Below, piece by piece: positions 33,694 to 45,008 of a stretch of 64,000 nt of DNA (the first letter of the stretch is position 1; each line of letters starts with the position of its first letter). The stretch covers positions 124,001 to 188,000 of the forward strand of contig NZ_CVLB01000001.1 of the NCBI RefSeq assembly GCF_001049755.1. Reading direction: 5' to 3'. Made by a program: the position numbers and the translations under genes. The notes under the pieces are model-generated. The model searched no databases. It saw only the letters and a program-made list of their open reading frames with translations, and was not told the origin of the DNA. The stretch is from Brachyspira suanatina (GTDB lineage: Bacteria; Spirochaetota; Brachyspiria; Brachyspirales; Brachyspiraceae).

Positions 33694-36294
33694 TTATTTT
33701 AATATAGAATCAGCCTGAGATTTTATAGAATTAGCTAGATTTTGTTTTCCCATTTTTAAATACATTTCAGACACTTTTATATAATCATTGTATAAAGATC
33801 TTTTTTCTGAATCATTCATATCTTCAATTTTTTTTTTTCCCCCATTAGGGATTTTGATATCTATATTAAATACTATACTGTCAGGATTATTTTTTATTAT
33901 ATTTTCGTTAAGTACTGCTATTGAAGGCCATCTTCTGCTGTCTCCAAGCTCTGCAGTGGCTATTGATGATAGTGTGTCAGTCCATTTTGTTTTATAAGTA
34001 TCTGTATTATATGCCAATGTGTTATTATTTGCCTGTGTATTGTTAACAGCCGCATTTGTATTTGCAGTTGGAGGATTAGGCGGAGGTGTTGGAGGAGTAG
34101 GTGGTGTTATTTCCGGCTCTTTTGGAGGAGTAGGCGGTGTTACAGTATTAGTTTGCGGTCTAGCAGTATTAGTCTGAGTATTTACTGTATTGTTAGTCTG
34201 TGGTCTAGTAGTATTAGTCTGAGTATTTACTGTATTGTTAGTCTGTGGTCTAGTAGTATTAGTCTGAGTATTTACTGTATTGTTAGTCTGCGGTCTAGCA
34301 GTATTAGTCTGAGTATTTACTGTATTGTTAGTCTGTGGTCTAGTAGTATTAGTTTGAGTATTTACTGTATTGTTAGTTTGCGGTCTAGTAATATTAGTCT
34401 GAGTATTTACTGCATTGTTAGTCTGTTGTCTAGCAGCATTAGTATTTACCGCATTGTTAGTTTTTATATTATTAGTTTGTGGTCTATTAATATTAGTGTT
34501 TATATTGTTAGTAACAGATATAACATCATTTGTTATTAGATTATTAGTATTTAATGTATTATTATTTGTTACTTCTTCATAGAAATTATCATCTATTTCA
34601 TTATTTCTTCCAGAGAAGAATTGTATGCCTAAGAATGATAATCCTAATATTATAATTATAATTCCAACTATAGGAACAATTTTATTAGATTTTTTATTCT
34701 CACTTATAGAATGATCAGGAGCCACATAAGGTTCAGCTGGTTTTTTTTCTATTTCAGGTAAAGAAGAAGTTTTTAATTCATCTTCTGTTTCTATAATTTT
34801 TATTTCTTTATCTTTTAATTCCTGAATTTTTTCATTGATAGTTTCTTTTAATTCTTCTATTTTTGTTTCTGATGCTGAAGAAGAATAATCTTTATAGTTT
34901 TCTACAGAAGTATTTTCATCTATTGTTGGAGCATCTTTTATTGCAGTATCTATTTCTTCTTGATTGAATTTAGATTTCTGTATATGTTCATCATCGTTAG
35001 GTATAACAACAGGTCTTTTAAATATATCACTTTTACTGTATGTAGCTTTTTCTTCTACTTTTAGAGTTTCCTCTTTCACTGTTTCTTCAATTTTCTCAAC
35101 TTCATCAGTATCTGCTTCTGTTTTCTCTTCTGCGATTACATCAAGTTCTTTAGTTTCTTCTACTACTGTTTCTTCTTTAGTTTCTATTTCTTCACTTTTT
35201 TCATTAGATTTATCTTCAGGTATTTCTTCTATATTTTCATCTTGAGTATAATTATTTTCTTCTATCTTTTCAGTTTCTTCAATTTTTTCTTCTTCTTTTT
35301 CTCTATTAGTAGATTCAAATGTTTCAAAAGAATAAGGAAATGAAGCATTATTATTATGAACTATTGCTGATGATGCTATAGTTTCTGTATTTGATTCTTC
35401 AGTAGTAGCAGCTGCAGTATCTTCAATATACTCATTTTTTTCTTCTGCTTTTTCAGCTTCTTCTGTTTTTATATTATGTGCAGCAAATACACTGCTTATA
35501 ACAGGTTTAGAAGTACTTATTTCCTCAGTAGTATTTCTAGTATTATCTAAATTATCATCATCATCTACATCTACTATAGCTATACGTTTTTTAACGCTTA
35601 CAGGTCTTGATACATTCTTAGATTTTGCCTTTATAGCTTCTTTAAGAAGAGTTATAGACTCTCTTTCAGTTTTAGTTTCAGTATTTTCTGTCTTAATTGA
35701 TTCAAGCTTTCTAACTGGAGTTGAAGTTTTAAGAACAATTTTTCTATCTGCAGTTTTTATTTCAGATGTAGCTTCTTTGATTATATCTTTTAAATCTCTT
35801 TTTTCATCATCATTTTTTTTCAGAATGGAAGTTAATGGCTTTGTTTCAGTTTTAGTTTCTTTTATTTCTGCTATTTTTTCTTCTGCTGTAGCAATTTCAG
35901 CAATATTTTTTTCAGGTTCTTCTTTCTTTTCAGCTTTTTCAGCAGTTTTTTTAGCTGCAGTTTTCTTTACAGGCTCTTCTTTCTTTTCAGCTTTTTCAGC
36001 AGTTTTTTTAGCTGCAGTTTTCTTTACAGGCTCTTCTTTCTTTTCAGCTTTTTCAGCAGTTTTTTTAGCTGCAGTTTTCTTTACAGGCTCTTCTTTCTTT
36101 TCAGCCTTTTCAGCAGTTTTTTTAGCTGTAGTTTTCTTTACAGGCTCTTCTTTCTTTTCAGCTTTTTCAGCAGTTTTTTTAGCTACAGTTTTCTTTACAG
36201 ACTCTTCTTTTTTGTTAGTAGTTTTTTCAGTTGCAGCTTTTTTTGTTTCTTTAGCTTCTTCTTTTTTGTTTGTTGTAGTTTTTTTTGTTGCCAT
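33694..36294 (-). CDS. Transmembrane protein with H1-like repeats, Asn/Thr repeats and LysM-like end (866 aa)
   Basis: Order: a Lys/Ala/Thr-rich N-terminus with about five 19-aa repeats of the type KKEEPVKKTAAKKTAEKAE (about residues 30-130), resembling histone H1-like tails; an acidic Glu-rich stretch to about 530; one membrane helix (about 536-559); Asn/Thr 15-aa repeats (RPQTNNTVNTQTNTT type, about 618-715); a Pro-rich stalk; and a LysM-like C-terminal domain (YKTKWTDTLSSIATAELGD then WPSIAVLNENI, from about 765). The plan predicts a cytoplasmic N-terminus and a periplasmic peptidoglycan-binding end. It lies between a winged-helix gene (4-bp gap) and the YkgJ gene. Function unknown. Confidence 0.8.
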   Translation of the reverse strand: MATKKTTTNKKEEAKETKKAATEKTTNKKEESVKKTVAKKTAEKAEKKEEPVKKTTAKKTAEKAEKKEEPVKKTAAKKTAEKAEKKEEPVKKTAAKKTAEKAEKKEEPVKKTAAKKTAEKAEKKEEPEKNIAEIATAEEKIAEIKETKTETKPLTSILKKNDDEKRDLKDIIKEATSEIKTADRKIVLKTSTPVRKLESIKTENTETKTERESITLLKEAIKAKSKNVSRPVSVKKRIAIVDVDDDDNLDNTRNTTEEISTSKPVISSVFAAHNIKTEEAEKAEEKNEYIEDTAAATTEESNTETIASSAIVHNNNASFPYSFETFESTNREKEEEKIEETEKIEENNYTQDENIEEIPEDKSNEKSEEIETKEETVVEETKELDVIAEEKTEADTDEVEKIEETVKEETLKVEEKATYSKSDIFKRPVVIPNDDEHIQKSKFNQEEIDTAIKDAPTIDENTSVENYKDYSSSASETKIEELKETINEKIQELKDKEIKIIETEDELKTSSLPEIEKKPAEPYVAPDHSISENKKSNKIVPIVGIIIIILGLSFLGIQFFSGRNNEIDDNFYEEVTNNNTLNTNNLITNDVISVTNNINTNINRPQTNNIKTNNAVNTNAARQQTNNAVNTQTNITRPQTNNTVNTQTNTTRPQTNNTVNTQTNTARPQTNNTVNTQTNTTRPQTNNTVNTQTNTTRPQTNNTVNTQTNTARPQTNTVTPPTPPKEPEITPPTPPTPPPNPPTANTNAAVNNTQANNNTLAYNTDTYKTKWTDTLSSIATAELGDSRRWPSIAVLNENIIKNNPDSIVFNIDIKIPNGGKKKIEDMNDSEKRSLYNDYIKVSEMYLKMGKQNLANSIKSQADSILK
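34150..34440. repeat. 45-bp tandem repeats inside the 866-aa gene
   Basis: About six 45-bp units coding (on the minus strand) for a 15-aa Asn/Thr/Gln repeat. Units differ mainly at a Thr/Ala codon. This is an obvious site for slippage and length change. Confidence 0.9.
35910..36205. repeat. 57-bp tandem repeats inside the 866-aa gene
   Basis: Five near-identical 57-bp units coding for the 19-aa Lys/Ala/Glu repeat. Several units are almost base-identical, which suggests recent duplication or gene-internal recombination. Confidence 0.9.
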
Positions 36295-36298
36295 ATTT

Positions 36299-37039
36299 TC
36301 ACTCTGTTATATTTTGTTTTCTGTTTATTAATATACTTTTTATAGTATTCATTGTCTTTTCATCGAATATGTTTTCAGTTATATTACCTCTTTTTAAAGA
36401 ATCTATAAGATATTTATTTAAATTTATATCTTTATTTAGATTTTTTTCTTTTGCTATATAAACATAATTACACATAGAAAGAATTATTCTAAGCTGATTT
36501 CCGTCAGAAGAATATTTATCTATTAATTTTTGAGGCTCATCTATACCTAAACAACTTAAATTATAACAAACTTTAAAGAAAAGTTTATTAGTAACTTGTT
36601 TAATTTGCGTATCTTTTTTAGTTTTTTTATTTACAGTATATAGTATAGAAAAGTCTCTAGCTTCAAAATTGCATATAGTAGCATAAAACTTTTCTTGATA
36701 AGGCATAAGATAATGATGACTTTTTGCCTTAGATTCTACTCTAGTAATAAAACCTTTCTCTTCTAAAGTATCCAATGATTTTACTATAGTAGCATTTCCG
36801 CCTATACCGGCTTCATTTAATATTTGAGAATGAGTTGTTTTAGCTATTCCAAGCTCATAATCATAATTAGCTACTAAAGTTCTGTATACTTCTTTAGCAG
36901 ATAAAGGTAATTTCTTCCAAGTATTATTTTCTGTTATAGATTTTGGAATGAAAGAACACATTGATGCTATTGACAAAAATGTATCTTTATCTATTGTTTT
37001 TAATTGTGCTTTATTTATTATATCTATAATGTTTTCCAA
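36299..37039 (-). CDS. Winged-helix DNA-binding protein (246 aa)
   Basis: An N-terminal half (about residues 45-125) shows a winged-helix pattern: KEVYRTLVANYDYELGIAKTTHSQI then GGNATIVKSLDTLEEKGFITRVESKA, with helix-turn-helix and wing as in MarR-type or replication-initiator-type domains. The C-terminal half is helical and Lys-rich. No specific family is certain. It is the first gene of the operon with the 866-aa envelope protein and YkgJ protein, and so may regulate them or share a chromosome-related role. Confidence 0.7.
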   Translation of the reverse strand: MENIIDIINKAQLKTIDKDTFLSIASMCSFIPKSITENNTWKKLPLSAKEVYRTLVANYDYELGIAKTTHSQILNEAGIGGNATIVKSLDTLEEKGFITRVESKAKSHHYLMPYQEKFYATICNFEARDFSILYTVNKKTKKDTQIKQVTNKLFFKVCYNLSCLGIDEPQKLIDKYSSDGNQLRIILSMCNYVYIAKEKNLNKDINLNKYLIDSLKRGNITENIFDEKTMNTIKSILINRKQNITE

Positions 37040-37557
37040 AATTCTACTCCAGTATGTATATAATATATCTAAATTAATATAAAATCAAGTTTTAATAAAA
37101 TATTTTATAAGTGTATTTTTTAATACTTTTATTTTATAAGTTAGACTTTTTTTATCGGATTTGTTTTTAATAATTTTATTTTGAATTTTTTATAAGAAAT
37201 TTTCAAAATATATTTTTAGAAACTCCGCTGAATTTCATTAATTTTAATTTTTTATGAGTATTTTTTGGAAATTTAGTCTTAAAATTTCCTGAGATTTCTT
37301 GAATTTTAATTTTTTTACGAACTTTTTTTGAAATTTATTCTAAAAAATCCCAAAATTTTGAATTTTTCAGAATAAATTTTCCAAAAATTACCCAAAAATT
37401 CCCTAAATTTCAAGATTTTTAGGCTATTTTGGGGCTCATTTTTGGCAAAAATGGCAAAATATATTTTTAGCTAGCCTCAATATGTATTATATGTTTTATA
37501 AATACTGTATTTTAATAAAAAAGCCTGAAGTTTTATAAAAAACGCCCTTTTTAGCTA
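37040..37557. other. AT-rich spacer with repeats and a long hairpin upstream of the 16S promoter
   Basis: No gene seen. It contains two degenerate direct repeats of about 60 bp (from 37232 and 37294). A long hairpin (arms about 37324-37348 and 37361-37387, a largely paired stem of about 25 bp) follows. Phased A and T tracts suggest curved DNA. Confidence 0.6.
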
Positions 37558-37585
37558 TTGTGTTTTTTTAGGTGTATGCTATAAT
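37558..37585 (+). promoter_or_regulatory. 16S rRNA promoter
   Basis: TTGTGT at 37558-37563, a 16-nt spacer and TATAAT at 37580-37585. This is the best promoter before the 16S leader. Confidence 0.65.
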
Positions 37586-37652
37586 AATAAAACAGTTGAT
37601 GAGAAACAAAAAACAAAACGAAACATCAGCTGACATAAACAAAAATAAAAGT

Positions 37653-37685
37653 TCTTTGAAATATGGATAGCAGAAGCAATTTAAG
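37653..37685 (+). other. Left arm of the 16S precursor processing stem
   Basis: The segment containing TTGAAATATGGATAGCAG pairs with 39358-39388 (CTGCTATTCATATTTGAA). This encloses the whole 16S gene in a long RNase III-type stem. Confidence 0.8.
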
Positions 37686-37825
37686 AAAAACAAAACACAA
37701 CTGGTGTAAACGAACTTAATAAGTTCTATGACCCAACGGTTACAATTTGTAACATTTCTTTAAGTAAGTAAATCTCTATTCAGTAGAATAGAAAAATAAA
37801 GAATCATTTCAGATTCACAAAAGTG

Positions 37826-39341
<1,516 letters not shown>

Positions 39342-39357
39342 TTCGGAGATTGTCCGA

Positions 39358-39388
39358 CTTAAATCTTACTGCTATTCATATTTGAAAG
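39358..39388 (+). other. Right arm of the 16S precursor processing stem
   Basis: Complementary to 37653-37685; see the left arm. Confidence 0.8.
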
Positions 39389-39428
39389 AATTTTTCCATA
39401 TTATATTTTTTATACCTCGTTAAATAAA

Positions 39429-39452
39429 CTAGCCTTTGAGGCTGGTTTTTTT
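39429..39452 (+). terminator. Terminator of the 16S rRNA gene
   Basis: A 7-bp stem CTAGCCT/AGGCTGG (39429-39435 and 39439-39445, one G-U pair), a 3-nt loop, then seven T. Confidence 0.9.
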
Positions 39453-39480
39453 GTGTCTTTTTGGAAAAATATTTATATTT

Positions 39481-39508
39481 TTGACTTTTTTGATAATATG
39501 TCTATAAT
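39481..39508 (+). promoter_or_regulatory. Promoter of the GntR-family gene
   Basis: TTGACT at 39481-39486, a 16-nt spacer, TATAAT at 39503-39508. Confidence 0.7.
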
Positions 39509-39536
39509 AGTTATAGTTGACATTGGAGATTTTTTT

Positions 39537-40268
39537 ATGGCTGTGTTGCAAAAAGAAATTGATATGAATATGCAAGAACAAAAAATATACGAGTATAATA
39601 GAATATATGTCTATAGAGTATTAAAAGAAAATATAATGAAATTGGTACTTAAACCAGGAGAAAAAATCAGCGAATTAAATATAAAGAAAACCTTTAATGT
39701 AAGCAGATCTCCAATCAGAGAAGCCATTGTTAGATTGGTGGATGAAGAATTAATTGATGTTTTTCCTCAAAAAGGTACTTATGTTTCTTTATTGGATCCT
39801 AGCTTAATAGAAGATTCATTATTTATGAGATCTGCTATAGAGAAAGAAATAATGATATTATTATGTTCTAAGGATTTTAATTCTGAAAATTTGTTAATTT
39901 CTTTAGAATATATATTTGAAAAACAGAAAAAAATAGCAGCTAGTAATTTAAATAGAGATTCTATTATGAAATTTTTAGATCTTAATGAACAATTTCATAG
40001 CGAGATATTTAAAAATCTTGATAAGATTAATATATGGGAAAAAATTTTGAAATTTGGAACTCATTATGTAAGATTTCATATACTTGAATCTATATCTAAA
40101 ACCAATGTAGATTTTGCTATAAAGCAGCATACTGATATTATAAATGCTATAAAAAATAAAGATTATAGTATAGCAATGCAGTTAGAAAATAATTTATTAT
40201 CCAATTATAGATGTAAATTAAAAAAAGTATATGATCTATATCCTCAATATTTTAAATATAAAGTATAA
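39537..40268 (+). CDS. GntR-family transcriptional regulator (FCD/FadR type)
   Basis: A 243-aa regulator. The N-terminal GntR winged helix (LVLKPGEKISELNIKKTFNV then SRSPIREAIVRL) is followed by a C-terminal helical FCD ligand domain with the expected metal or ligand histidines (NEQFHSEIF, and the later QHTDIINAI). FCD regulators usually sense organic acids. I start at ATG 39537, preceded by GGAG; the open frame to 39453 overlaps the 16S terminator and the promoter. The target is unknown; the citrate operon at 52 kb is one candidate. It is convergent with the next gene. Confidence 0.9.
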   Translation: MAVLQKEIDMNMQEQKIYEYNRIYVYRVLKENIMKLVLKPGEKISELNIKKTFNVSRSPIREAIVRLVDEELIDVFPQKGTYVSLLDPSLIEDSLFMRSAIEKEIMILLCSKDFNSENLLISLEYIFEKQKKIAASNLNRDSIMKFLDLNEQFHSEIFKNLDKINIWEKILKFGTHYVRFHILESISKTNVDFAIKQHTDIINAIKNKDYSIAMQLENNLLSNYRCKLKKVYDLYPQYFKYKV

Positions 40269-40280
40269 TTATATTATTTT

Positions 40281-42983
40281 TTAATCATTAGTAGTTTCTT
40301 CTTTGAATCCTAGAGATAAATCTATTTCCTTACTGTAATTGCTGTCATAATACCAATTGTATAGTTTCCAATTATTAGTATCAAATATATTATTATTTAC
40401 ATGATAATATGTATTAAAATCATAAGTGTTTGATGATTGATTTTCAGGCTTCCAACTTCTTATTCTTATTATATTAGCACCATTAGTTTTATAATCATTA
40501 GTTATTATTTTATTATTGAATATGTTTTTTATATCTTTTATATGATTAACTGCTAAATATGGCATATCTGCTACAGTCATAAAATTGGTATCAATATTTA
40601 ATCTGCCTTTTGAATTAAAATCTTTGTACATTAATAAAGAATTATATAAAGCTATGAATTTGGTATTAGGCTTTTCAAAATATTTAGCGTTTATTCTATA
40701 TCCATGATCTGAAATAATTATTATTTTTGTATTATCATAAACATTATTATCTTTCAAGAAATTTATAATTTTAACTATATTTTTCATTGAAGCAGCATTA
40801 GCATAAAAATGTCTTACACTGTTTGTATCTTTATATATTTTTAAATCATTTGTATCTATATAGTTCAAAGATACTGAAGGCAATAAATCAGGAAGAAAAT
40901 AATGCGGTTCATGTGTGGTATTGTTATGCATTATATTATAATTATTACCATTTTCATCTATATTTATTAAATCTTTAATAGAATCTAGTAAGGCATAATT
41001 TTCTATACTTGTATTCATAATATTATTTTCGTTTATAAGCCATTTTCCGCCACTGTATAATGTTTTTCTTAGCCATAAAGGTATTATCCTAAAAAATGAA
41101 AATCTTATCAATTTATCATTATCTAAATTAGATGTTATTATATTATTTTCATTTGTATATTTGTTAATGCTGTAATCATATATATAATCTTTATTATATG
41201 CTTTGATATTACTGTAATTATTAAATATGCTTAGATCACCTTCAAAAGACATATTAGCATAAACAGGATCAAGTATATAAGATTTATAGCCGTATTTTTC
41301 TAAAGATAGAGGCAATGTTAATAATGCATTGTTATGAATATTTGTAATATTGTTTTTCTTATTTGTGCTTGTTTCGTATGGTAGATAATCATAACCTCCA
41401 TAAATAGATGCTATTGTTATGGTATTATAATTGTATGAAACAGTATTAGGATAGAATGTAAAGCCGTCAAACATATCTTTATATTCTTCAAATCTATTAA
41501 AGGCATCAAACCAATATGAAGGTATGGCTCTATCCAATATTATAACGAATATATTTTCTCCATTTCTCGATATATTAAATATTTTTTCTCCGTTTTTTAA
41601 TTTATATGATGTTTTTGTATATCTATCATCATAGCTTAATATCTTATATGTATAAAATATTGATGAGGCAATCAATACGAATATTATTATATAATCAATA
41701 TTTACTAATACATAGGATTTGGATTTTTTTATAATGAAATAAATAAAAACGAAAGAAATTAATATCATTAAAGTATTGATTATTATATCTTTATTAACTA
41801 TTTTAATAGAACTGTCAAACATAAAATCAGAGTTCATATTAGGATAATTACCAGCAAAAATGAATGTGTCTATTATGAATATTACAGACAAAAATATAAA
41901 TGCTAATGTTATATAATTTTTTGTTTTATCTGAAAATATATTATATATAAACAAAGGATAAAATAAAAATATTCCTATACTCATTGAAAGATTATTTATT
42001 ATTAGGCTTAAATGATTATTGAATTCTGATACTGAATTATTTATCAATGATGTAGGTATAAAGAGCCCTGAAAGTACGGTTATAATCAAACATGATAATA
42101 TAAGTAGTTTATATCTGTATTTAATGAAATTATTATTTTTAATCAATGATTTTTCTATATAATCAAAGTTTAATGTCAATATTATTATTATAAAAAGAGT
42201 TAAAATATTTTTTATATCTATTTTATTTATAAAAGATATCACAATCAATACTATAAAAGCCAATATAACAAACACATTGCATATTTTTAATATTTTATCT
42301 TTATTTAATGCCTTATATAATTTATATTCCAAAACAATATTTTTAATTAAAGAAAATAGGCAGTTGATATTCCAATAAAATAATAATCCTGAAGGCGAAT
42401 TATATAATATGATTAAAAATATTAATGAACTTATATATAGAGGCATACTTTCTTTTATAGTCAATTTTTTGCTGTAAACCATTCCTGCAAGTATACTGAA
42501 TATAGTCATAGTAAATGGGAGTAAATTAATACCGTTTATTAAATTATCAGGCTTTGAAAAATCTTTTATGAAAAATAAATTTCCCTGAGATAAATCGGAT
42601 AAACTGTATATGAAATTATATGCTGCAATAAAGAAAGGTATTTGTATTAAAAGCCCTAAAACTCCTCTGAAGGCATAAATTATTTTGTATCCGTTAATTC
42701 TATGACAGGTTCTTATTAGTAAATATCTTTGATCACCTTTATAAACGGCTTTTATATTATCTATTATAGGCTTCATTTTGTTTTGAATGTTTCTTTCTTT
42801 TTCCTGCCATTTTTCTGCTATATTATAAAGAGGGAGAGATAAAAAATTTACTGATAAACTTAATAAGAATATACTTGTACTATAAGATAAATTAAATATA
42901 TTCTTAAATAGAAAAAATAAAGTTTCTATAATAAATTCTATTGGAAATATAAAAATATCAAAAAATATATCTGCTAATATCAT
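40281..42983 (-). CDS. YidC/Oxa1-like membrane domain fused to a sulfatase-like domain (900 aa)
   Basis: Residues about 1-230 look like a YidC/Oxa1 insertase core: KWQEKERNIQNKMKPIIDNI coiled region, RVLG-type helices and NSPSGLLFYWNINCLFSLIKN. A middle part (about 235-450) holds further membrane helices. Residues about 475-830 form an extracytoplasmic alkaline-phosphatase-superfamily (sulfatase/phosphoglycerol transferase-like) domain: FVIILDRAIPSYW (Asp484), TTHEPHYF, IIIISDHGYRI (Asp759-His760-Gly761). The nucleophile Ser/Thr is not clear. Canonical YidC is about half this size, so this is not the housekeeping insertase. Possible role: modifying an envelope polymer near a membrane insertion or flipping channel. 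Confidence 0.8.
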   Translation of the reverse strand: MILADIFFDIFIFPIEFIIETLFFLFKNIFNLSYSTSIFLLSLSVNFLSLPLYNIAEKWQEKERNIQNKMKPIIDNIKAVYKGDQRYLLIRTCHRINGYKIIYAFRGVLGLLIQIPFFIAAYNFIYSLSDLSQGNLFFIKDFSKPDNLINGINLLPFTMTIFSILAGMVYSKKLTIKESMPLYISSLIFLIILYNSPSGLLFYWNINCLFSLIKNIVLEYKLYKALNKDKILKICNVFVILAFIVLIVISFINKIDIKNILTLFIIIILTLNFDYIEKSLIKNNNFIKYRYKLLILSCLIITVLSGLFIPTSLINNSVSEFNNHLSLIINNLSMSIGIFLFYPLFIYNIFSDKTKNYITLAFIFLSVIFIIDTFIFAGNYPNMNSDFMFDSSIKIVNKDIIINTLMILISFVFIYFIIKKSKSYVLVNIDYIIIFVLIASSIFYTYKILSYDDRYTKTSYKLKNGEKIFNISRNGENIFVIILDRAIPSYWFDAFNRFEEYKDMFDGFTFYPNTVSYNYNTITIASIYGGYDYLPYETSTNKKNNITNIHNNALLTLPLSLEKYGYKSYILDPVYANMSFEGDLSIFNNYSNIKAYNKDYIYDYSINKYTNENNIITSNLDNDKLIRFSFFRIIPLWLRKTLYSGGKWLINENNIMNTSIENYALLDSIKDLINIDENGNNYNIMHNNTTHEPHYFLPDLLPSVSLNYIDTNDLKIYKDTNSVRHFYANAASMKNIVKIINFLKDNNVYDNTKIIIISDHGYRINAKYFEKPNTKFIALYNSLLMYKDFNSKGRLNIDTNFMTVADMPYLAVNHIKDIKNIFNNKIITNDYKTNGANIIRIRSWKPENQSSNTYDFNTYYHVNNNIFDTNNWKLYNWYYDSNYSKEIDLSLGFKEETTND

Positions 42984-43147
42984 ATATATTATTTAAAATT
43001 TAAAAATTAGAGAATAATATAATAACATATATTTTATATTATAAAAGTATATTAACATAATATTAATAATTTTTATAAAACTCTTGTTTTTTTATTAATA
43101 TTAGTTACTATATAAATAATAAATAAAATTATTTTGGGTTTTAATTT

Positions 43148-43822
43148 ATGAAATTTATATTTTCCAGATTTTTGATAGGAAGCATTGTTATATTGATAGG
43201 TGCTTATATTCTGCTACAATATGTTTTTCATATTTATATTCCAGCACTTGCATATACTCCGGTATTTACTATAATAGTTGCTATTTTGATAATGGCTTGG
43301 GGATGTGCTATAGTTGTAGGCAGAGGTTTTTATGCATCTAAAATACTTTTAGGACTATTTGTCATAGGTACAGGAATATATGTACTTATAAGATACTGCT
43401 TTAATATCAATATGCCTTTTATATTATATACGCCAATATTTAGAATGGTTATAGGTATGATAATAATATTTTTGGGTGTTTATATACTATTCGGCATGCA
43501 TTATGTAAGAGACAGTATACCAAAAAATAAAAAAACTAAATATAATGTTTATTTCAAAACTGATAGTATAGATTTATCAGAATTGGAAATAGACAGAAAC
43601 AGAGCTATAGATATTAATACAATTTTTTCAGATACAGTTGTTTTTATAAGTGATAAGGTACAGGTTCATATAAAGGCTTCAAGTGCTTTTGGTTCTGTTT
43701 CTCTTCCTACAGGCGATAGTGTGAGTTTTGGTGAAACTAATTTTGTTATTGGCAACTCTGATAAAATACTTTATTTAAATGTAAGTTCAGCATTTGCTCA
43801 AATCAGGGTTCTTTATAAATAA
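43148..43822 (+). CDS. LiaF-like membrane protein with duplicated TM hairpin
   Basis: A 224-aa protein with four membrane helices arranged as two similar halves (residues about 1-60 and 61-120, each with a YTPxFxxxxxxxxxxxxG-type link between helices). A C-terminal cytoplasmic or periplasmic beta domain follows (about 150-224, VQVHIKASSAFGSVSLPTGD and ILYLNVSSAFAQIRVLY), resembling the LiaF/DUF2154 cell-wall-stress domain. No LiaRS-type two-component genes are adjacent. It is 38 bp before rsmD on the same strand, so possibly co-transcribed. Confidence 0.75.
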   Translation: MKFIFSRFLIGSIVILIGAYILLQYVFHIYIPALAYTPVFTIIVAILIMAWGCAIVVGRGFYASKILLGLFVIGTGIYVLIRYCFNINMPFILYTPIFRMVIGMIIIFLGVYILFGMHYVRDSIPKNKKTKYNVYFKTDSIDLSELEIDRNRAIDINTIFSDTVVFISDKVQVHIKASSAFGSVSLPTGDSVSFGETNFVIGNSDKILYLNVSSAFAQIRVLYK

Positions 43823-43860
43823 ATGTTTTATTAGAAATATTGTAAAAGAGTAATTAATTT

Positions 43861-44424
43861 ATGCATATAATATCCGGAAATAAAAAGGGAAGAAAAATAA
43901 TAACCCCTAAAAGAGATTTCAGACCTACACAGGGTAAGGTTAAAGAGGCTTTTTTTAATATAATAGATATAGAAAATAAAACTTTTTTGGATCTATGTTC
44001 CGGAAGCGGTGCTATGGGGTTTGAGGCTTTAAGCAGAAATGCTAAATTTGCTGCTTTTATAGAAATAGACAGAGAGGCCGTAAAAACCATATTTTCTAAT
44101 GCTAAAGCTATATTCAATGATAATGAAAATATATATAAAATAAAAAGAGTATCGGCTGAAGATTATGTAAAAAAGACTAATGATAAATTCGATGTTATAT
44201 ATTTAGATCCGCCATACCATTCAAAGATATATTTTGATGTTGTAAATAATATAATAAAAAGAAATATATTAAATGATAATGGAGTTTTAGCTGTAGAGTT
44301 TGGTGCAGATTATTATAAGAAATTTTTAGAAAATGAAGAATTAAAAAATATAATATCCGGTATTATGGAATATGATATAAAAACTTACGGCGAAAGCGTT
44401 TTGATAATATTTAAGTATATATAA
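43861..44424 (+). CDS. rsmD: 16S rRNA (guanine-966-N2)-methyltransferase RsmD
   Basis: A 187-aa SAM-dependent methyltransferase acting on 16S rRNA. It shows the family N-terminus IISGNKKGRKIITPK, then RPTQGKVKEAFFNI, motif I FLDLCSGSGAMGFEALSR, and the catalytic motif DPPY at residues 116-119. It ends at a strong terminator. Confidence 0.96.
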   Translation: MHIISGNKKGRKIITPKRDFRPTQGKVKEAFFNIIDIENKTFLDLCSGSGAMGFEALSRNAKFAAFIEIDREAVKTIFSNAKAIFNDNENIYKIKRVSAEDYVKKTNDKFDVIYLDPPYHSKIYFDVVNNIIKRNILNDNGVLAVEFGADYYKKFLENEELKNIISGIMEYDIKTYGESVLIIFKYI

Positions 44425-44426
44425 AA

Positions 44427-44465
44427 AAGAGATGCCTATTAAAAAGCATCTCTTAATAGTTTTTC
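44427..44465. terminator. Terminator after rsmD
   Basis: A 9-bp stem AAGAGATGC (44427-44435) with GCATCTCTT (44446-44454), then a T-rich tail. It may serve both convergent genes. Confidence 0.85.
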
Positions 44466-44512
44466 ATAAACCATTTAGCCGTAAAATATTTTCATAAACC
44501 TTAATCTATCTA

Positions 44513-44944
44513 TTAATCGTCCCATTGCTGACCCATTAACTGACCATTAGCAGCTACATATATTTCCATCATATTGTTAAGTTTTATTTTGTAATTACCC
44601 CATTCTTTTTCAACATCTATCATTCTAGCCTGAGGATAAGTTCTTCTAACAGTATTAGCTACAGCCTGAGGTAAAACGCTCATAGGTACTCCGTTATATT
44701 CTCCATCTATATTAAGCCAATTACCATTAGGCATAAAATCTATAGAAGCTCCATTAGACAATTTAACTTCAAATTTGCCGTCATCTCTTTCAACTTTCCA
44801 TATCTTAGCATTAGGATAAACTCTTCTTATAAAAGTCCTAGCTTTTTGAGGCAATGCTGAAGCTGGTACTACCCAATCAGCAAAAAGGCTTGATGTAGAA
44901 AGAATAGTTAAAGATATTAATAAAGCTAATAATTTTTTTGTCAT
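44513..44944 (-). CDS. Secreted PepSY-like (DUF2874) protein
   Basis: A 143-aa protein with a signal peptide (about residues 1-21) and two PepSY-like repeats of about 58 aa. Each has a P..A...I/V.R.YP.A...V pattern (VYPNAKIWKVERDDGKFEVKL and TYPQARMIDVEKEWGNYKI) and ends in a strand with F/Y-PNG or AANG. Such proteins are periplasmic inhibitors or binding proteins with no settled role. GGAG precedes the ATG, and a good promoter lies upstream. It is divergent from apbE. Confidence 0.85.
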   Translation of the reverse strand: MTKKLLALLISLTILSTSSLFADWVVPASALPQKARTFIRRVYPNAKIWKVERDDGKFEVKLSNGASIDFMPNGNWLNIDGEYNGVPMSVLPQAVANTVRRTYPQARMIDVEKEWGNYKIKLNNMMEIYVAANGQLMGQQWDD

Positions 44945-45008
44945 AATGAATCTCCTTAATTTAATTGTATTTTTTAATAATCTCCTGTAAATTATCTTTA
45001 CAATTATA

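Follow-up and report, generated by a model that had tools for sequence, protein, structure and literature searches.

What does a protein do that joins a YidC-type membrane core to an extracytoplasmic domain of the alkaline-phosphatase (AP) superfamily? The question is raised by a 900-aa reading frame of Brachyspira suanatina, located in a 64-kb stretch of DNA, here called the window. An original prediction saw in the frame a two-part machine, in which the groove of the YidC fold presents a lipid-linked or peptide substrate to a transferase or hydrolase outside the membrane. Since members of this family have an almost constant partner, a Glyphos_transf protein (hereafter GLY), and frequently stand beside genes for headgroup activation, the fusion probably forms the final component of a hitherto undescribed system that decorates surface sugars.

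The fusion gene and its surroundings

The features of the gene are collected in Table 1. The frame is uninterrupted, and Pfam recognizes 60KD_IMP (PF02096) at residues 34-218 above the cut-off (E 6.8e-21) and Sulfatase at residues 524-770 just under it (E 3e-5, 23.9 bits for a cut-off of 25). Among 35 diverse family members, 60KD_IMP is matched in 35/35 and Sulfatase in 33/35. The model of the full fusion (pLDDT 84.8, pTM 0.75) contains an alkaline-phosphatase fold, and a separate model of the YidC-like part has the YidC fold. Frame, Pfam and models thus bear out the predicted succession of YidC-type core, extra membrane helices and AP-superfamily domain, and the motifs on which it was founded lie where they had been placed, namely SPSGLLFYWNIN at 196-207, ILDR at 482-485, THEPH at 690-694 and ISDHG at 757-761.

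Table 1. Features of the fusion gene and of the encoded protein, in window coordinates
Feature	Position	Strand	Basis
Fusion gene, 900 aa (YidC-like part, TM region and AP-superfamily domain)	40281..42983	(-)	Single uninterrupted frame, Pfam, model, orthologues
YidC-like module, residues 1-225	42309..42983	(-)	60KD_IMP E 6.8e-21; model Z 17.6 to 3wo7
N46, at the YidC groove Arg/Lys position (E. coli R366 equivalent by alignment)	42846..42848	(-)	Alignment, 185 homologues
TM region, residues 226-460: two linker helices and PbgA-like five-TM block	41604..42308	(-)	Helices in model; PbgA alignment
Extracytoplasmic alkaline-phosphatase-superfamily domain, residues 461-900	40284..41603	(-)	Pfam, structural matches of model
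D484, invariant 62/62, predicted metal ligand	41532..41534	(-)	Family alignment
T521, invariant 62/62, predicted nucleophile	41421..41423	(-)	Family alignment
H691 of THEPH, invariant 62/62	40911..40913	(-)	Family alignment
D759-H760 of ISDHG, invariant 62/62, predicted metal ligands	40704..40709	(-)	Family alignment
K787, invariant 62/62	40623..40625	(-)	Family alignment

Chance read-through and assembly artefact were rejected as explanations, because orthologues 69-95% identical occur in other Brachyspira and fusions of ~900 aa with 30-39% identity are widespread in spirochaetes. Among the matches listed, the nearest named relatives of the window protein are from Brachyspira, at 94% identity.

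The gene is flanked on one side by the 16S rRNA/GntR-FCD region and on the other by genes of an unrelated block. The GntR/FCD-family regulator (39531-40268, + strand) is convergent with the fusion gene, with 12 bp between their ends, and is preceded by a complete 16S rRNA gene (37826-39340, + strand); no other rRNA was found in 36000-45000, and no tRNA anywhere in the 64-kb window. The lowest-GC block of the window (40001-44000, 22%) overlaps the fusion gene. Further away, 33694-36294 (- strand) encodes an 866-aa protein with one TM segment, a long N-terminal array of Lys/Glu-rich repeats (57-bp unit, 5.3 copies) and a 45-bp Thr/Asn-rich array (6.6 copies) that precedes a LysM-like C-terminus; it is probably a variable envelope protein.

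The YidC-like part

Modelled alone (pLDDT 89), the YidC-like part superposes on the YidC of B. halodurans (3wo7) with Z 17.6 and rmsd 3.3 over 212 residues, and on E. coli YidC with Z 16.2. The cytosolic C1 hairpin of YidC is kept in the family alignment, while two features of insertases are lost. The groove position occupied by Arg/Lys in YidC, and by Lys in the aligned housekeeping Brachyspira protein, is N, S or T in 184/185 aligned family members and Q in the remaining one, with no R or K. The Lys-rich basic C-terminal tail that binds the ribosome, present in most aligned housekeeping YidCs, is found in none of the family. Presentation of a peptide, one of the two substrates originally envisaged, is therefore unlikely. 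A separate housekeeping yidC (626 aa), for which the original prediction had proposed to look, is encoded elsewhere in the same genome, and a housekeeping YidC was found in each genome examined individually. The idea that the fusion is a second housekeeping yidC was rejected on these grounds.

In 98.6% of pairs of family members, sequence identity is higher in the YidC-like part than in the AP part. The four paralogues of the window genome are 62-72% identical in the former versus 39-54% in the latter, and in one tandem pair the values are 93% versus 51%. This pattern is consistent with a ligand shared by the YidC-like parts and with acceptors of the AP parts that diverge; structural constraint alone could also account for the higher conservation of the YidC-like part.

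The membrane region and the outer domain

In the model, about seven TM helices separate the YidC-like part from the AP domain. Residues 282-895 match full-length PbgA (6xlp), TM helices included, with Z 20.5 and an rmsd of 15, so that the relative placement of the TM block and the AP domain is unreliable. Counting helices from a cytosolic end of the YidC core, the AP domain would face the outside. Its fold, recognized at 474-895, gives Z ~20 to sulfatases, LtaS, LtaP, PbgA and EptC; phosphonate monoester hydrolases and sulfatases are among the top structural matches, tied with LtaS, LtaP and EptC, and identity to solved relatives is 8-16%.

Assignment within the superfamily relies on the motifs. 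The order D484, T521, H691, D759, H760 is that expected of Thr phosphotransferases of the LtaS/EptA type, and D484, D759 and H760 belong to conserved motifs of the two-metal type. The candidate nucleophile, a Thr in 62/62 sequences, comes after the first metal Asp/Glu and ahead of the DH motif, and we take T521 to be the equivalent of LtaS T300 from this motif order rather than from residue-level superposition. The formylglycine motif of type I sulfatases, (C/S)xPxR, was not found; residues 515-530 read VSYNYNTITIASIYGG. An invariant Thr where sulfatases carry the formylglycine Cys/Ser brings the domain closer to phosphotransferases, and these sequence features point to a Thr-type phosphotransferase. 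Identity as a sulfatase was rejected for want of the formylglycine motif, and the description of the outer domain as sulfatase-like, which the original prediction had adopted, is corrected accordingly.

Distribution, split forms and a second fusion

The window genome encodes four fusions, the window copy included. In Brachyspiraceae the fusion is patchy (16/29 genomes), and in a sample of 393 spirochaete genomes it is present in ~105, often as tandem copies. A scan of 84,980 species retrieved at least 498 relatives, of which 79 loci were kept. These belong to spirochaetes (Brachyspira, Treponema, Spirochaetaceae, Sphaerochaetaceae) and to clostridia (Lachnospiraceae, Butyrivibrio, Oscillospiraceae and others), so that the survey found the same fusion well beyond Brachyspira, as had been thought worth looking for. 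Its presence in around a hundred of the 393 spirochaete genomes and in clostridia led to rejection of a recent or local fusion. One paralogue (L151:13014-15954, genome G007) is broken into two overlapping frames of 731 and 281 aa and is possibly a pseudogene or a phase-variable copy.

The two halves also occur apart. At four loci (L164, L165, L169 and L126, the last from T. putidum, with five YidC-like genes), a stand-alone YidC-like gene lies directly beside GLY and the AP enzyme is encoded by a separate gene. At a further locus, an 850-aa protein (L163:13285-15837) combines a divergent YidC-like part with a different AP lineage, one whose relatives are the stand-alone AP enzymes encoded at L164, L165 and L175 (E 1e-41 to 1e-49); it did not match the window protein's AP domain. 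Judged by these sequence relationships, fusion of YidC-like and AP parts probably arose at least twice, and two fusion events are strong evidence of a functional partnership. A mere oddity of Brachyspira was rejected given the size of the family, its split versions and the second independent fusion.

The partner GLY

GLY consists of an N-terminal YIDPGTGS membrane segment followed by a TagF/TarL-like Glyphos_transf domain (PF04464). Among the 393 spirochaete genomes it was found in 102/105 fusion-positive versus 1/288 fusion-negative genomes (both genes in 102, fusion only in 3, GLY only in 1, neither in 287). Of the three fusion-only genomes, one (G021) has part of a GLY gene at the edge of a contig and the other two are drafts with a completeness of 85-86%; the single GLY-only genome is 66% complete. 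In Brachyspiraceae, GLY is present in 14/16 fusion-positive versus 0/13 fusion-negative genomes. In one clostridial class (245 genomes sampled), 7/8 fusion genomes have a strong GLY match, and the non-fusion genomes have no strong match and two weak partial ones (26-28%). The co-occurrence therefore holds at the level of a genus, over the phylum and again in another phylum; as the genomes share ancestry and are not independent, Fisher p-values overstate its significance.

Linkage is also physical. In the loci analysed, GLY and fusion are direct neighbours 84 times, always on one strand and with a median gap of -4 bp, which suggests translational coupling. The window copy differs: no obvious partner, no GLY and no activation cassette was seen among its neighbours, and the single GLY of its genome is located elsewhere. 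A PDB search with GLY gave one weak match, TarL (E 0.002). The best-known Glyphos_transf relatives, TagF and TarL, lengthen lipid-linked polymers and are not loaders of a lipid carrier, which makes the GLY product proposed below a guess.

Headgroup-activation cassettes

Genes for the activation of headgroups accompany 46 of the 122 loci. In 27 they are of the AEP type (PEP mutase, phosphonopyruvate decarboxylase and PntC-transaminase), one of these also with LicCA; nine loci have NTP-CobD genes, six LicCA alone and four an ECT-like gene (a short CTP_transf_like gene). At the other 76/122 loci no activation cassette is in view, many of them being ended by contig edges. Where a cassette is visible, its product is CMP-aminoethylphosphonate or, going by annotation, CDP-ethanolamine/choline.

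The LicCA type is found beside the 1008-aa paralogue of the window genome (L051), where GLY, a LicC-LicA-like protein, the ethanolamine permease EutH and the fusion follow each other. The LicC-LicA-like protein (NTP_transferase and Choline_kinase domains) matches CTP:phosphocholine cytidylyltransferase 1JYK (E 2e-26). Two Brachyspira genomes agree in the flanks, in GLY (86% identical) and in the fusion but differ in the cassette, which is LicCA plus EutH in one (L051) and AEP in the other (L149). LicD is the usual terminal transferase of Lic-type pathways. It is present in some Treponema and clostridial clusters, where other transfer routes thus coexist, and absent from 29/29 Brachyspiraceae, in which something else must therefore do the transfer.

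An AEP cassette is exemplified by L064, a head-to-tail run of PntC-AEPT, Ppd, PepM, fusion, GLY and a further fusion. Its PntC-AEPT (L064:1085-2911) shows a full-length match with T. denticola Tde1415 (6PD1/6PD2; E 7e-259); the T. denticola PntC has been crystallised and shown to make CMP-AEP (PMC6697681), so that the activation step is experimentally known for one homologue.

The NTP-CobD fusions (L055:4420-6255, L066, L124 and others) lie within two genes of a YidC-like gene. The protein of L055:4420-6255 (611 aa) is not a PntC-AEPT; it joins a cytidylyltransferase-like (NTP_transf) domain to a CobD/threonine-phosphate-decarboxylase-like domain. By analogy with known CobD-like decarboxylases, such proteins could form phosphoethanolamine from phosphoserine, and a one-protein route from phosphoserine to CDP-ethanolamine is possible. 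In the L126 genome an NTP-CobD query retrieved no PntC, its match being a generic aminotransferase; such a query says little about PntC.

A model for the module and its alternatives

That the fusion belongs to a system with GLY and headgroup-activation genes is well supported. Within it, the chances are about even that the fusion is the terminal, membrane-embedded part of a surface-decoration module in which GLY loads a donor, the YidC-like part moves or holds it and the AP domain transfers it. Each kind of cassette would activate its own headgroup in the cytosol (2-aminoethylphosphonate, phosphoethanolamine or phosphocholine) as CMP-AEP or a CDP-alcohol. The membrane-anchored GLY would then put the headgroup on a membrane carrier, probably polyprenyl phosphate or a lipid, and the YidC-like part would hold the lipid-linked headgroup and let it cross the bilayer in the manner of a scramblase or flippase. 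Finally, the outer AP domain would form a Thr phospho(no)-enzyme and hand the headgroup on to a glycan of the surface. Since tandem paralogues share one GLY and differ mainly in their outer domain, they would serve different acceptors; the window copy, having no GLY beside it, would rely on donor supplied by the only GLY of its genome, which lies elsewhere. Crossing of the bilayer is made plausible by in-vitro experiments in which E. coli YidC and Oxa1 scrambled lipids (PMC10491306); such scrambling is reported as general for insertases and is not specific evidence for the YidC-like family. The wider proposal, that a branch of YidC/Oxa1 left protein insertion and now serves solely to flip or present lipid-linked aminoethyl-phosphate/phosphonate headgroups, as lipid transporters of a new class in a three-component system with a TagF-like loader and a fused transferase, is more tentative and falls somewhat short of an even chance. 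Of the two-part machine first suggested, the lipid-linked substrate and the outside transferase fit best, now as parts of the larger module with GLY, and the peptide substrate does not.

The strongest competitor would have the AP domain use an ordinary phospholipid (PE or PG) for its donor, as EptA, OpgB and LtaS do, with the YidC-like part as only a helper in assembling or stabilising the multi-TM enzyme or an anchor for GLY and with GLY building a separate acceptor polymer. The similarity of the AP domain and TM block to PbgA, LtaS, LtaP and EptC agrees with this, as do the TagF/TarL-like nature of GLY and the known chaperone role of the YidC fold. The scheme leaves unexplained, however, why cytidylyl-activated AEP or ethanolamine cassettes stand in the same operons and are swapped at one locus, and why the split YidC-like gene pairs directly with GLY; it is a minority possibility, with perhaps a quarter of the weight. 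Less probable still is an outer domain that works as a hydrolase (phosphodiesterase, phosphonate monoesterase or sulfatase), trimming or recycling surface or host glycans. The Pfam Sulfatase/Phosphodiest matches and the rank of sulfatases and phosphonate monoester hydrolases among the structural hits favour it, but LtaS, LtaP and EptC tie with these, the invariant residue is Thr in place of the Cys/Ser of a formylglycine motif, and the genomic context is one of polysaccharide synthesis and headgroup activation. Last, an insertase for the membrane proteins of its own operon, carrying the AP domain as a passenger, is very unlikely despite the clear YidC homology and fold and the retained C1 hairpin, given the groove charge lost in all aligned homologues, the missing Lys-rich tail, the housekeeping YidC of the genomes examined individually, the invariant AP catalytic residues and two independent fusions to AP domains.

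Novelty and significance

Curated NCBIfam families include none that covers the fusion or GLY. The open-access literature searched holds no description of the architecture, and Brachyspira sulfatase papers make no mention of the fusion. All parts have known relatives; what appears new is their combination, the linkage to GLY and a YidC fold that has probably changed its function. The later steps by which aminoethylphosphonate is attached to the bacterial surface were called enigmatic by Rice et al. 2019 (PMC6697681), and for treponemes, Brachyspira and gut clostridia the fusion family provides a concrete, testable candidate. It may also offer a natural example of a YidC fold acting on lipids instead of proteins, with a bearing on lipid scrambling by insertases (PMC10491306). 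For annotation, the consequence is that these fusions match YidC and sulfatase models and probably are neither in function.

Comparison with known systems

In the three-component modification of O-antigen, GtrB loads the carrier, the flippase GtrA follows and an outer GtrC/S transferase completes the reaction. The module proposed here would share this logic of loading a carrier, flipping and transferring outside; it uses unrelated protein families, and its headgroup is a phospho(no)-alcohol, not a sugar. With TagF/TarL/TagB, the CDP-glycerol or ribitol phosphotransferases of PF04464, GLY has in common the PF04464 core and the RPHP and SDxS motifs, but it is shorter, has the YIDPGTGS membrane segment at its N-terminus and is linked to the YidC-like module. 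The Lic pathway (LicABC and LicD) and the phosphonyl-tailoring pathway (PntC; PMC6697681) have the same cytidylyl-activation enzymes and the same proposed surface destination, to which the module adds GLY and the YidC-like/AP transfer machinery, LicD being absent in Brachyspiraceae. LtaS, LtaP, EptA-EptC, OpgB and PbgA resemble the fusion in that an outer AP-fold domain with the order D...T...H...DH comes after five TM helices; the fusion adds the N-terminal YidC-like module and two linker helices. Finally, the YidC/Oxa1/Alb3 insertases (PF02096) share with the YidC-like part the fold, the five-TM core, the cytosolic C1 hairpin and the PF02096 match, whereas the YidC-like part has N/S/T for the groove Arg/Lys, is without the Lys-rich tail, carries an insertion in the C1 region and is fused to, or in an operon with, GLY and the AP enzyme, in addition to a separate housekeeping YidC in the genome.
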